Positions 53,735-58,320 of a stretch of 64,000 bases of DNA are shown piece by piece. A program made the position numbers and the translations under genes. This stretch comes from Phycisphaerales bacterium (GTDB taxonomy: Bacteria > Planctomycetota > Phycisphaerae > Sedimentisphaerales > Anaerobacaceae): contig JAUVYV010000013.1 in the NCBI GenBank assembly GCA_030602885.1, positions 1-64,000 of the forward strand, read 5' to 3'. Positions within the stretch are counted from its first letter, which is position 1. Each line of letters opens with the position of its first letter. The notes under the pieces are model-generated. The model was given only the letters and a program-made list of their open reading frames with translations. It was not told the DNA's origin and did no database searches.

Positions 53735-56700
53735 TTGTCTGTCGTGATGCTGCAGGGACCGTCAGTGAAAAAGGAACTACCTACAAAATCGGCTGGAGCG
53801 CTGCTGGAAGCAGCATACAGAAATTTGGGCTATGATGAAGGCTCGCTGATTGCTGCAACGGATTCAGCCAATGGACTAGAGCCAAGCGATTGGATTGAGA
53901 AAGGGGAGTGGCTGGCTCTGGCGAAGAAAGTAAACGCCGAGAGGATATTCTTCGTCGAGAACAACCCTGTGATTGTCTTTGCGCAATGTCGAGAGGATGA
54001 ACACCAACTGCGCTTTCAGCAGATATGGAATATGGCAAGACCGCCACTACTTTTTCTTGCTTCTCCGGGAGAACTGGCTGTTCTGGATTTGACTCACGGC
54101 CCCGCTGAGACTCCTGACGACTGGGAGGCAACGATATTGAAACGCCGTCTTCACGTTGTTAAAGAGGTGTCGAAGGTAGCAAGTGAATTAGCCAAGTACA
54201 GGCGGGAGCAAGTCGAGTCAGGACGGCTATTTGAAGAAGTCCGTTTCGGTGACGAACAGCGAGCAGACAGAGCACTTGTTGCCGATCTCAAAGTGATTCG
54301 CCGTGAACTTATGGCCGACGGCGGATTAGATGCGCGTTACGCACACGCGATAATCGGACGCTCGATTTTCATTCGCTATCTTGAAGATCGGAACATCTTG
54401 GTTCCAGAGTACTTTCGAAGAATAGCACGCAGAAATAAGAGATGGCAGAAACTATTGGATACTCCCGTTAGCGGTATCTTCATGGATGAGGAGTTGAGGA
54501 ATCGCCTGTATCTGCGCGTACTCCGAAATAAGCAGTTCACCTACGCGCTGTTTGAGCAACTGGCAATGGACTTCAATGGTGATATGTTTCCAGAGGATCA
54601 CGGAGAAGAGAAAGCGATTAAACAAAGCCATCTGGACGTGCTTCAGCAGTTCCTCTGTGGAAATCCAGATCCCAACCGTCCACGGCTATTTTTCTTTGCA
54701 TACAGGTTTGATATAATTCCGATTGAGTTGATAAGCAGCATATATGAGGAATTCTACGGTGCGGGGCTGCAAAGCACTGTTGACGGTGGAACACACTACA
54801 CACCGCCAGCATTGGTGGAATTTCTTCTATCACAGGTGCTTACACCAGAGCAGTTGGCAATGGCCCCGAGAGTGCTTGATCCGGCATGCGGTTCCGGAAT
54901 ATTCATAGTGGAAGCATTTCGGCGAATTGTGCGATATCGTGTGCAAGTTCAAGGGAGGCGGCTGAACCGCAGGGAATTGCTTAAGATCCTTCGTGAGCAA
55001 ATCGCCGGGATGGATATCAATGAGGAAGCTATACGTGTTGCTGCCTTCAGCCTTTACTTGGCTTTTCTCCACTACCAAGAACCTCCGGACATCTTGGCTC
55101 AGATAAAGGCGAAGAAACGCCTACCAAACCTGAAATACGAAGCGCGACGAAGCAGAGTACCCGAACAGCACTTTAATACGTTGCTTGCGTGCAATGCGTT
55201 TGACATCGAAAGTAAGATTTCACCTTCAGACAAAGATGTGATCGCGGCATTTTCGAGCAATTGCGCTAGTATAGTAGTGGGCAATCCACCTTGGGGATCA
55301 CCAGGCACGAAACCTGAGGAACGACAAGCCCGTGAGGCTATGGACGTTACTCTCAGCTGGTGTGAGAAACACCAACCGAGACTAGAAGTCGGTGACCGGG
55401 AGTGGTCGCAGGCCTTCATCCACAAAATATGCGATTTGTTGCAGGATGGCGGCCAAGCTGGACTGCTTGTCTCCGCAGGCGTTCTATTCAAGAGCCACGA
55501 GAAAAGCCAGGCGTTTAGAAAACAATGGCTTAGAAGCGTCAAGCTGCACTGTGTTGTGAATTTTTCGCATGTCCGCGATGTCTTCTTCAAGGGAAAGGCG
55601 AGGAAGACCGGTGCGCAGGCACCATTCATCTCCGTCACGTTCACTAAACGGGAACACGATTCAGGAAACCTCAGCTTTGAATACTGGTCTGCGAAGAAGA
55701 CTGCTATGGTGGAGGGAACACAGGCTGTAGTTCTAAGTAAACCAGATCTACATCGCTTGGCACAACAAGATGTTATGCGAGACGATAATCTCTGGAAGAT
55801 ATTCTGGTGGGGAAGCCATAGAGACAACATGCTGGTTCAAAGGCTCCAAATGGAGCTGCCCCTGGAAGATACGGTAATACGTGATGTTAGGCTTCGCGAT
55901 GATAATTTCGGACAAGGTTATATTCTAGGACAATCAGGCAAGAGAGAACCCTGTGAGGAATTGCAGGCGTTCAAGGTGCTGCCAACAAAAGCTTTCCGAC
56001 GATACGGGGCTGCAAGACTGAAGAAGAAGACAGGACAAGAGAGTTTCTATCGTAGAGGCAACTTCAGACTGTACAAAGGCACAAGGCTGCTAGTTAAGCG
56101 CGGCATAGCAGAGAGCGGCTCGGAGAAAGGGCAAATTGTAGCCAGGCTTGCCACTCAACCATTTCGATTCAATAGTTCTATACACGGACTCCGACTTCCG
56201 GACAGTAGTGGTGCAGAAGCAAAAATCCTGCTTGGAATTTGCTGGTCATCATTAGCGAGGTACTACTTCTGGCTTACCGCTGGATCGTGGATGTGGCACA
56301 ACGAAATTCATCTGGAGGATTTGCGGCATTTGCCTATACGTCTTCCTGAGAACAAAAAACTCGCAGAACGCATTGTGAGTATTGTAGACAAGCTCAGAGT
56401 ATATCCAGGAGAGGACTTGTTCGCAAATTCTGATGTAACGGAATCTATTAGTGAGCTTGAGAGGCGATTAGACGAAGCAATCTTTGATCTGTACGAGTTG
56501 AGCCCCTCTGAGCGTGATCAGATAATGGATATGTGTGAATACGGCTTGGATCTCTTCTATAACCATACCCACAGTGAGGCCATGAAACCCATCGCAGCTG
56601 GACAACCTGCCAAACGCTCTGGAGTCTTGAGCAATCTGTCTTCCTCACGAAGTCGCAAATCTGGACTGAATAACTACCTGAGGGCATTCCTTGATATATG

Positions 56701-57061
56701 GAACAGAGAACTGGAACCAACCGGGGAATTCAGCTACCAAGTCATTTGCCCAAAGTCACAAGCTCCAATGCTTGCTGTTGTGTTCGAAACTCAAGAGAAG
56801 TCGAAACCACTGGAAGACTCGCCAGATACGCATGACGATGCATGGGAGCGCGTTCTGGCTCAGCTGAGTGAATCTCTTATTGGTCCTATTGGCTGCAAGC
56901 GAATCTATATTGATGGAATGGTGAGAGTGGTTACCGACACCGACATTATCATCATCAAACGGAATGAGCAACGACTATGGACTGCTAGTATGGCGCGTGA
57001 GGACGCCGAGGCTACATTGCTGCAGGCAATGCATCTACAAGAAGCTGCAGGGAGAGCGTGA
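53735..57061 (+). CDS. Eco57I/TaqI-type DNA adenine methyltransferase of a restriction or defence module
   Basis: 1108 residues. Residues 1-180 form an extra N-terminal domain (ERIFFVENNPVIVFAQCRED, FLASPGELAVLDL) not assigned to a known fold. The methyltransferase core has motif I VLDPACGSGIFIVEAF near 378 and NPPWGSPG (motif IV, adenine-N6) near 517. A TaqI-C-like target-recognition part follows (SSLARYYFWLTAGSWMWHNE near 845, DLRHLPIRLP). The last 110 residues (RIYIDGMVRVV, IIIIKRNEQRLWTASMA) form a separate C-terminal domain. TTG start with GGAAGGA 8 bases upstream. Base composition is AT-richer than the neighbours, a hint of transfer. It overlaps the nuclease gene by GTGA. Confidence 0.9.
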   Translation: MSVVMLQGPSVKKELPTKSAGALLEAAYRNLGYDEGSLIAATDSANGLEPSDWIEKGEWLALAKKVNAERIFFVENNPVIVFAQCREDEHQLRFQQIWNMARPPLLFLASPGELAVLDLTHGPAETPDDWEATILKRRLHVVKEVSKVASELAKYRREQVESGRLFEEVRFGDEQRADRALVADLKVIRRELMADGGLDARYAHAIIGRSIFIRYLEDRNILVPEYFRRIARRNKRWQKLLDTPVSGIFMDEELRNRLYLRVLRNKQFTYALFEQLAMDFNGDMFPEDHGEEKAIKQSHLDVLQQFLCGNPDPNRPRLFFFAYRFDIIPIELISSIYEEFYGAGLQSTVDGGTHYTPPALVEFLLSQVLTPEQLAMAPRVLDPACGSGIFIVEAFRRIVRYRVQVQGRRLNRRELLKILREQIAGMDINEEAIRVAAFSLYLAFLHYQEPPDILAQIKAKKRLPNLKYEARRSRVPEQHFNTLLACNAFDIESKISPSDKDVIAAFSSNCASIVVGNPPWGSPGTKPEERQAREAMDVTLSWCEKHQPRLEVGDREWSQAFIHKICDLLQDGGQAGLLVSAGVLFKSHEKSQAFRKQWLRSVKLHCVVNFSHVRDVFFKGKARKTGAQAPFISVTFTKREHDSGNLSFEYWSAKKTAMVEGTQAVVLSKPDLHRLAQQDVMRDDNLWKIFWWGSHRDNMLVQRLQMELPLEDTVIRDVRLRDDNFGQGYILGQSGKREPCEELQAFKVLPTKAFRRYGAARLKKKTGQESFYRRGNFRLYKGTRLLVKRGIAESGSEKGQIVARLATQPFRFNSSIHGLRLPDSSGAEAKILLGICWSSLARYYFWLTAGSWMWHNEIHLEDLRHLPIRLPENKKLAERIVSIVDKLRVYPGEDLFANSDVTESISELERRLDEAIFDLYELSPSERDQIMDMCEYGLDLFYNHTHSEAMKPIAAGQPAKRSGVLSNLSSSRSRKSGLNNYLRAFLDIWNRELEPTGEFSYQVICPKSQAPMLAVVFETQEKSKPLEDSPDTHDDAWERVLAQLSESLIGPIGCKRIYIDGMVRVVTDTDIIIIKRNEQRLWTASMAREDAEATLLQAMHLQEAAGRA

Positions 57062-57753
57062 ATTTGGCAAGACCACACCTAAGCAAACTGGATTCCTGGG
57101 GCAATCATGAAGCTCGTGTGCTGAAAGTGTTTGAACTGGCGTTGAGGCTCCTTCGGGAGGAAGATGATCTTCCGCCTAAAGAAGAGGCTATAAATAGGAA
57201 ACTGTACTTCTGCATTCATCGAGCTAATCGGCAACTGAACGATCCTCTTTCGGGGCCCCCTGTATACGATGGCAAGAATGCTCCTGATGCCAGTGATGAG
57301 GTCAGAACTCAACGAGAGGATAAGAGACCAGACTTTGTCTGCAGTTTCTATGACTATCAAGAACCTGATCCGGAAAGAAGCGCCAAGCATTACGTTGTGG
57401 AGTGCAAACGGTTAGGGATGCCATCCGGTTCATGGAAATTCAACAGCAACTACGTAATCCATGGCATTTGTAGATTCGTGAATCCCGAGTGGGGATATGG
57501 TAAGTCCTCCAAAACCGCCGCGATGGTCGGGTATGTTCAAAGCATGGAACTCGATGATATTCTAACTGAAGTGAACGGCAAGATTCGCGACATGCAATTA
57601 CCAAAGATCAGCCTCTTCGCTGAGGGCTGGAAGAAGCGGGATGTCACAACGCTCAATCAGAGCTTGCGACGTAGCAAGATTCTGCCAAAGGCATTCCGTT
57701 TGAGACATATCTGGTTAGATGTGCGAGATAGGTATAGAGAGAGCTTTGGCTAA
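57058..57753 (+). CDS. PD-(D/E)XK-like nuclease coupled to the methyltransferase
   Basis: 231 residues. KRPDFVCSFYD and, 22 residues later, HYVVECKRLG form a plausible PD...ExK catalytic set (Asp of PDF, then Glu-Cys-Lys). The C-terminus is basic (FRLRHIWLDVRDRYRE). It starts with GTG inside the methyltransferase stop, so the two are made together. The likely reading is the restriction partner, cutting DNA not modified by the methylase. Target sequence unknown; no crystal-family match recalled. Confidence 0.7.
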   Translation: MNLARPHLSKLDSWGNHEARVLKVFELALRLLREEDDLPPKEEAINRKLYFCIHRANRQLNDPLSGPPVYDGKNAPDASDEVRTQREDKRPDFVCSFYDYQEPDPERSAKHYVVECKRLGMPSGSWKFNSNYVIHGICRFVNPEWGYGKSSKTAAMVGYVQSMELDDILTEVNGKIRDMQLPKISLFAEGWKKRDVTTLNQSLRRSKILPKAFRLRHIWLDVRDRYRESFG

Positions 57754-57930: not shown

Positions 57931-58092
57931 TTGCCCATGCGTTCACGAGATATCATCTTTAGCTTCTCAGCCCTTGAACTTTTTCAGAAATCAGTGTTAA
58001 TTTATCCCTACCGAAGGGGGATCAGTGTGAACTTGTGCCTACCGAAGGGGTATCAGTGTCTAAAAACAAACCGCCTATATTGCCCAACTTAA
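57931..58092 (+). CDS. 53-codon ORF behind the consensus promoter, possibly a truncated gene
   Basis: GGAGG stands 8 bases before a TTG (then ATG two codons later). The start (RSRDIIFSFSALELFQKS) looks protein-like, but the frame then enters the 31-bp tandem repeat and ends at TAA 58090-58092. It may be the 5' end of a gene cut by repeat invasion. Unrecognised. Confidence 0.4.
   Translation: MPMRSRDIIFSFSALELFQKSVLIYPYRRGISVNLCLPKGYQCLKTNRLYCPT
57990..58059. repeat. 31-bp tandem repeat, 2.3 copies
   Basis: Units begin ATCAGTGT and end CCTACCGAAGGGG at 57990-58020 and 58021-58051; a partial third starts at 58052. The 22-base core (58007-58028 and 58038-58059) has one mismatch. A period of 31 shifts the reading frame between copies. 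Confidence 0.85.
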
Positions 58093-58119: not shown

Positions 58120-58320
58120 GCAAAACAAACCCAATTTCAGCAGACCCAAAAATAAACCTAACCCTATATTCAGAAAGGGTTTACGAAAAATATTCACCCC
58201 TTCGAACGGTGAAAAGCAAACCCAAGCAAACCCAATTCAAAGCCAATTCAAACCCAATTTCAGCCCAAACAAACCCAAACAAAGCCAATTCAAACCCAAA
58301 ACGAACCCAATTCCAAACTC
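58120..58320 (+). repeat. AAACCCAATT-type low-complexity repeat tract
   Basis: AAACCCAATT or AAGCCAATTC and CAAACCCAA variants recur from 58127 to about 58315. Two plus frames stay open through it and encode Lys-Pro-Asn-Phe and Thr-Asn-Pro-Ile patterns; I regard these as by-products of the repeat, not genes. Such NKPNF-type ORFs are, to my knowledge, widespread in planctomycete genomes. Confidence 0.75.

Follow-up and report, generated by a model that had tools for sequence, protein, structure and literature searches.

Which protein cuts, and which chooses the site, when a large adenine methylase is encoded directly upstream of a small nuclease-like protein? The question is raised by two adjoining genes of a Phycisphaerales bacterium (Planctomycetota; GenBank assembly GCA_030602885.1, contig JAUVYV010000013.1), which lie in a stretch of 64,000 nucleotides (nt) that we call the window and to which coordinates refer unless another locus is named; every gene, domain, and codon located in it is on the forward (+) strand. 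The methylase gene (53735–57061) has a TTG start, with GGAAGG 8 nt upstream, and encodes 1108 residues; the nuclease gene (57058–57753) encodes 231 amino acids (aa), and its GTG start falls inside the methylase stop (gcGTGAat), such that the two genes overlap by GTGA. A first interpretation, made from the letters alone and referred to here as the sequence-only reading, had delimited both open reading frames (ORFs) and their overlap in just this way.

The best explanation, to which we assign a probability of about two in three, is that the pair constitutes a two-gene restriction-modification system derived from a Type IIG enzyme, in which cutting has moved to a separate subunit. Under this reading, the large protein would recognize an asymmetric DNA site through a TaqI-like domain and methylate an adenine there, its N-terminal cleavage domain having kept the fold but not the catalytic residues; the small PD-(D/E)XK subunit, itself lacking a matching sequence specificity, would do the cutting. 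The two proteins would form a complex in which the large subunit recruits the nuclease when the site is unmethylated, probably via its lineage-specific C-terminal domain, the dead N-terminal domain, or both, and cleavage of unmethylated DNA would restrict phages or plasmids. The computational evidence lies in the folds of the two proteins, a dead N-terminal domain, near-obligate co-occurrence, and an exchange of recognition domains without replacement of the nuclease.

The nuclease and the domains of the methylase

The assignment of the small protein as a separate PD-(D/E)XK nuclease subunit draws on its ORF, residue conservation, a structural model, and fold matches. An AlphaFold model with 68 aligned partners (predicted local distance difference test score, 92.7; predicted template-modeling score, 0.90) places D92 at the edge of strand 93–98 and E115 and K117 on strand 109–119, the arrangement of the PD-(D/E)XK core, such that a nuclease by fold is well supported by the predicted structure. 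The absence of a nuclease fold, which would have told against the sequence-only reading, did not materialize, and the PD...ExK pattern that it had picked out corresponds to D92 (codon 57331–57333) and E115-C116-K117 (57400–57408). E115 and K117 are present in 68/68 members and D92 in 67/68, as is E42 (codon 57181–57183), an acid on helix 2; among noncatalytic residues, Y132, Y147, and H217 occur in 68/68, and G136 and F140/Y140 are nearly invariant. Foldseek comparison of the model with the PDB returned no significant match, and VIA-align ranked OkrAI first (Z 8.3, 148 residues, 4.1 Å), followed by BstYI (6.6–6.8), McrC (5.9–6.3), EcoRII-C (5.4), and NucC (5.3). PD-(D/E)XK enzymes make up most of the top rows; since a VIA-align Z below 8 is weak by itself, the call rests on this run of enzymes together with the catalytic residues.

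No model in PADLOC, Pfam, NCBIfam, or PHROG covers the nuclease family, for which the best library match is Pfam PDDEXK_9 (5/68 members, best E 3.2e-6). Two other candidate matches were set aside: PADLOC PDC-S31 (E 0.0045), which matched 1/68 members, and the antibody heavy chains returned by phmmer against the PDB (E 1e-5 and above), which are spurious.

At the other end of the module, the sequence-only reading had recognized a domain of ~180 residues at the N terminus of the methylase and left it unassigned. The domain is there, but it can be given an identity: residues ~20–145 (53792–54169) very probably form a dead cleavage domain of the Type IIG kind, its fold kept and its catalytic residues lost. 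In the model, these residues run helix-strand-helix-two strands-helix-two strands. By hhalign, the domain matches the N termini of seven classical Type IIG enzymes found among viral loci (L108, L109, L111–L114, and L116) with 85.4% probability (P 5.8e-6, 98 columns); as a yardstick, HSDR_N, an accepted PD-(D/E)XK family, reaches 78.6% against the same seven, and two other methylase domains, serving as negative controls, score 0.1% and 2.5%. Compared directly, the domain showed no match to the partner nuclease (0.1%) and only a 22% match to HSDR_N; the Type IIG comparison is the decisive one. Where the classical enzymes have D...ExK (e.g., PDYCFRIGGTRKFFVEVKK), the window methylase has A83-Q84-C85 at the ExK positions, and, in an alignment of 66 relatives, column 83 holds an acid in 0/66 and column 85 a lysine in 1/66. 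It is the 85% match combined with loss of ExK across relatives that argues for a dead domain, and the large chain thus lacks the active N-terminal cleavage domain of a Type IIG enzyme.

These same columns bear on another alternative, in which the methylase is an ordinary Type IIG enzyme, still cutting with its N-terminal domain by means of unusual residues, and the small nuclease is an accessory. Two PADLOC models (PDLC03623 and PDLC03603) do place the methylase as Type IIG, and an acid is retained at column 69 in 49/66 relatives. However, the ExK glutamate is gone from all 66 and the lysine survives in one, Type IIG relatives without a partner retain D...ExK, and the partner is near-obligate; we regard this alternative as highly improbable.

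The remainder of the large chain is that of a gamma-class N6-adenine DNA methyltransferase, as judged from ORF, Pfam, model, and superposition. A helical connector (residues ~150–330, 54182–54724, from the secondary structure of the model) leads to the methyltransferase core (residues ~330–670, 54722–55744), which contains motif I (LDPACGSGIF, residues 381–390, 54875–54904) and NPPW (residues 517–520, 55283–55294), both already seen in the sequence-only reading as those of an Eco57I/TaqI-type adenine methylase. The gamma class follows from the order of parts: the S-adenosylmethionine motif lies ahead of NPPW, and the recognition region lies beyond it. Pfam recognizes the core alone (Eco57I, E 1.5e-16; N6_Mtase, E 6e-16). 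A TaqI-like target recognition domain (residues ~690–870, 55802–56344) was delimited by alignment to M.TaqI and CamA; M.TaqI aligns structurally with residues 354–871, and Pfam TaqI_C has weak matches in two relatives and none in the window methylase itself, which together bear out the earlier suggestion of TaqI-C-like recognition. The whole chain superposes on two Type IIG enzymes, DrdV from residue 71 onward (Z 23.5) and BpuSI from residue 56 onward (Z 20.7), and, as in Type IIG, a gamma-class adenine methyltransferase is fused to a C-terminal recognition domain.

Beyond the recognition domain lies an extra C-terminal domain (residues ~975–1108, 56657–57058), likewise anticipated from the letters alone. 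It is conserved in 66 relatives and carries the motif (K/R)-x4-R-x-W-x4-A-x2-D-A, in which W1082 and D1090 are invariant and R1080, A1087, and A1091 near-invariant. No Pfam model matches it, nor does it have a match in the seven classical Type IIG relatives without a partner. Because it is found where the partner is, this domain is our leading candidate for the surface on which the nuclease would dock.

Recurrence of the pair across genomes

The nuclease adjoins the methylase in seven loci of the same taxonomic family and in six plasmids of Alphaproteobacteria or IncP type. A scan of genomes with methylases alone yielded 80 loci from a wide range of bacterial phyla and from several lineages of archaea, with hosts among the Planctomycetota, Cyanobacteria, Chloroflexi, Verrucomicrobiota, Bacteroidota, Bacillota, Pseudomonadota, Aminicenantes, Acidobacteriota, Methanosarcinales, and Altiarchaeales, among others. 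A nuclease profile trained on 13 sequences from outside the tested set detected a partner directly downstream in 77/80 methylase loci (77 genome plus 3 viral), and at the three misses (L036, L052, and L080), ≤346 nt of contig was left. The same profile found a partner in 0/75 other methylase loci from viral contigs (L108–L182, some of them near-duplicates). In reverse, the C-terminal domain of the methylase lay just upstream in 33 of 35 loci found by their nuclease; the exceptions are L204, which sits at a contig start, and L005, where the nuclease is a fragment. Because the alignment behind the methylase scan came from loci already known to carry the partner, close relatives lacking one could be undersampled. 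With about 100 loci showing it, the pairing is far beyond chance, and we consider near-obligate co-occurrence well supported, in answer to the co-occurrence check that the sequence-only reading had called for. By sequence, then, restriction and modification are not joined in a single chain, the nuclease residues being on a separate adjoining gene.

In the samples counted, the system occurs in 13/392 Planctomycetota genomes and 6/395 genomes around Paracoccus; in G000, the nuclease is present as one copy. Searching plasmids with the nuclease by tblastn gave no match, although homologous partners are present on them; members of this family diverge too quickly to be found with one sequence as the query. 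The nuclease had no relative in viral_contigs, and phage genomes held no methylase match at E 1e-20.

Existing catalogues see half of the pair. Both PDLC03603 and PDLC03623 are labeled "REase_MTase_IIG" in PADLOC and in several cases match the methylases nearly end to end (E down to 7e-99); in the Planctomycetota sample, PDLC03623 at E 1e-40 matches four genomes only, all four of which have the nuclease. The methylase is thus catalogued as Type IIG with its partner unmodeled, and the single-gene label is probably wrong. In the libraries searched, no named family matches the pair end to end, and the proposal that it fits no classical Type I, II, or IIG layout holds for the pair as a whole but not for its methylase taken alone.

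A role in defense is suggested by the architecture and by the defense genes beside some plasmid copies; on plasmids, the module adjoins Shedu, TIR and SIR2, AbiH, and toxin-antitoxin or recombinase genes. The TIR/SIR2 and AbiH neighbors of some copies would also suit a system in which the methylase is monofunctional or regulatory and the nuclease is an effector triggered in another way (by a phage inhibitor or altered methylation), in the manner of BREX or abortive infection, as would the close structural relationship of the methylase to BrxX/PglX (Z 25.4) and of the nuclease fold to McrC and NucC. Yet the conserved unit is two genes, without consistent linkage to an ATPase, PglZ, or sensor gene, and the architecture and dead cleavage domain indicate a Type IIG ancestor, leaving the effector model improbable, if less so than an ordinary Type IIG enzyme.

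Several copies depart from the two-gene form. In the IncP plasmid pRSB223 (L020, 4076–7770), the methylase is split into ORFs of 719 and 281 aa with overlapping ends, followed by the nuclease, and this three-gene version adjoins a class 1 integron with resistance genes. Alphaproteobacterial plasmid copies have a conserved ORF of ~60–70 aa directly upstream of the methylase (L021:3542–3727, L209:3668–3862, L213:3676–3864, and equivalents) that looks ribbon-helix-helix-like by eye, and in L017 and L018 its place is taken by an ORF of ~158 aa, MerR-like by eye. Both are probably regulators, with the conserved core being the two genes. Two nuclease genes appear to be broken (L194, G799:C56; L005, G066:C792); one has an internal TAG, and the other, a fragment, has no methylase beside it, a hint that the nuclease is sometimes lost.

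The seat of specificity

If the nuclease read its own site, it would be expected to change along with the recognition domain. The relatives G067 and G016 provide the clearest case: their methylases are 60–95% identical over residues 1–600 and 78–96% over residues 901–1108 but only 25–43% over residues 601–900, and although the recognition region has been cleanly exchanged, identity between the nucleases is 74%, which is indirect evidence that the methylase probably provides the nuclease with its target. A weaker version occurs in L032, L039, and L047, where recognition identity varies between pairs and nuclease identity holds steady at 64–66%. The opposite is seen between G016 and L023 (nuclease, 45%; methylase, mostly 68–92%), and no clear exchange of recognition domains was seen among the alphaproteobacterial plasmid copies. 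In a distance-matrix regression over 75 protein pairs, nuclease divergence was weighted on the methylase core (0.33), the C-terminal domain (0.27), the recognition domain (0.20), and the N-terminal domain (0.14), and the largest weight fell on the C-terminal domain (0.52) when the closest tenth of pairs was considered; as the pairs are not independent, these weights are suggestive.

Certain observations count against a recruited nuclease within a defense system. The clean exchange of recognition domains alongside a well-conserved nuclease comes mainly from one close pair, the L032/L039/L047 case being partial; nuclease divergence remains partly associated with the recognition domain (beta 0.20); and the nearest structural matches, OkrAI and BstYI, belong to Type IIP, whose members recognize sites by themselves, which leaves room for a self-specific nuclease. 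Moreover, the window copy is not in a defense island but is flanked by a TRAP transporter on one side and bioY on the other.

The fold matches and the residual association with the recognition domain would fit a classical Type II pair, in which the small protein acts independently as a Type IIP-like endonuclease on the methylase's site, with the dead N-terminal domain left over as a relic, and the size of the nuclease (~220–240 aa) is also typical of Type IIP. Against such a pair stand the 74% nuclease identity of G067 and G016, the noncatalytic residues that stay constant in 68 members with unrelated recognition domains, unlike those of independent Type II enzymes, and the extra C-terminal domain of the methylase, which, among the sequences examined, is found only where the partner is present. 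We judge a classical pair to be unlikely, although it is the strongest of the alternatives.

Returning to a nuclease directed by the methylase, a more specific and more tentative proposal, which we put forward as a possibility less likely than not, is that these loci represent a distinct, widespread, and unnamed class of restriction-modification system, a "trans-nuclease" Type IIG whose dead cleavage domain would act as a pseudo-partner and pair with the active PD-(D/E)XK subunit. One recognition domain would then command both methylation and cutting, and specificity could be changed by replacing that domain alone. The matter has consequences for annotation, as this conserved two-gene system is currently recorded as a Type IIG enzyme encoded by one gene, next to a "hypothetical protein." Should cutting indeed reside in a separate subunit, surveys in which the methylase counts as a complete restriction enzyme misdescribe the system, expression of the methylase only would methylate without restriction, and the coupling of recognition to cleavage in a Type IIG-like enzyme becomes directly testable; a specificity exchangeable in one place would also be of practical interest for engineering.

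Surroundings and relation to known systems

As the sequence-only reading had remarked, the base composition of the module is unlike that of its flanks: guanine-plus-cytosine (GC) contents are 0.490 (methylase) and 0.478 (nuclease), and those at third codon positions (GC3) 0.49 and 0.51, versus 0.52–0.57 (GC) and 0.58–0.74 (GC3) in nine flanking genes. The low GC3 of both genes relative to the flanks is in keeping with horizontal arrival. Downstream of the nuclease are two 31-bp direct repeats, head to tail and 84% identical (57990–58051), and just 3′ of the module is an array with an 11-bp period (CAAACCCAATT / CAAAGCCAATT; 58121–58320). The 11-bp-period repeat is dispersed genome-wide (82 and 60 matches by two patterns, with 0 for reversed-pattern controls), often sits at contig ends, and occurs in 15/60 relatives, with a maximum of 74 matches in G069.

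We found no description of this methylase-nuclease pair in the open-access literature, nor is there one in the available portions of a BREX-related survey (PMC12839542). The arrangements listed in the available parts of two reviews (PMC3874165, PMC4081073) have a Type IIG restriction (R) domain that is permanently N-terminal and a Type I R/translocase subunit that is separate, and do not include a chain with fused modification (M) and specificity (S) functions plus a separate, motorless R subunit.

Among known systems, BREX (PglX/BrxX) and Type ISP (LlaGI, LlaBIII) resemble the pair in their methyltransferase and recognition regions, which superpose with Z 24–25, but the conserved unit here is two genes, without PglZ, an ATPase, or a fused helicase-nuclease; neither pglZ nor brxC/pglY ATPase genes lie beside the window module or among the annotated neighbors of plasmid copies. 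Type I systems likewise combine a gamma-class methyltransferase with a separate restriction subunit that uses the specificity of the methylase, as we propose for the pair. In contrast to the helicase/translocase R and separate S subunits of Type I, the pair has its recognition domain within the 1108-aa chain and, as its putative R subunit, a single 231-aa domain without a translocase motor.

A nonspecific small nuclease joined to a large recognizing subunit is known from the Type IIT heterodimers BtsI, BsrDI, and BspD6I, whose small subunits lack specificity (PMC4081073), and a BtsI subunit, BtsIA, is inactive alone (PMC2909958). In Type IIT, however, the large subunit is an active nuclease rather than a methyltransferase and two separate methyltransferases accompany it, such that each subunit has a distinct active site; in the pair, the cleavage site of the large subunit is degenerate.

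The closest likeness is to Type IIG enzymes (Eco57I, MmeI, BpuSI, and DrdV), with which the large protein shares an N-terminal PD-(D/E)XK fold, a helical connector, a gamma-class methyltransferase, and a C-terminal recognition domain that is exchanged between relatives. The pair differs from them in three respects: its fused cleavage domain is without catalytic residues in all 66 aligned relatives, its methylase carries an extra C-terminal domain absent from the seven partnerless Type IIG relatives examined, and its cutting residues are located on a separate, near-obligate small protein.

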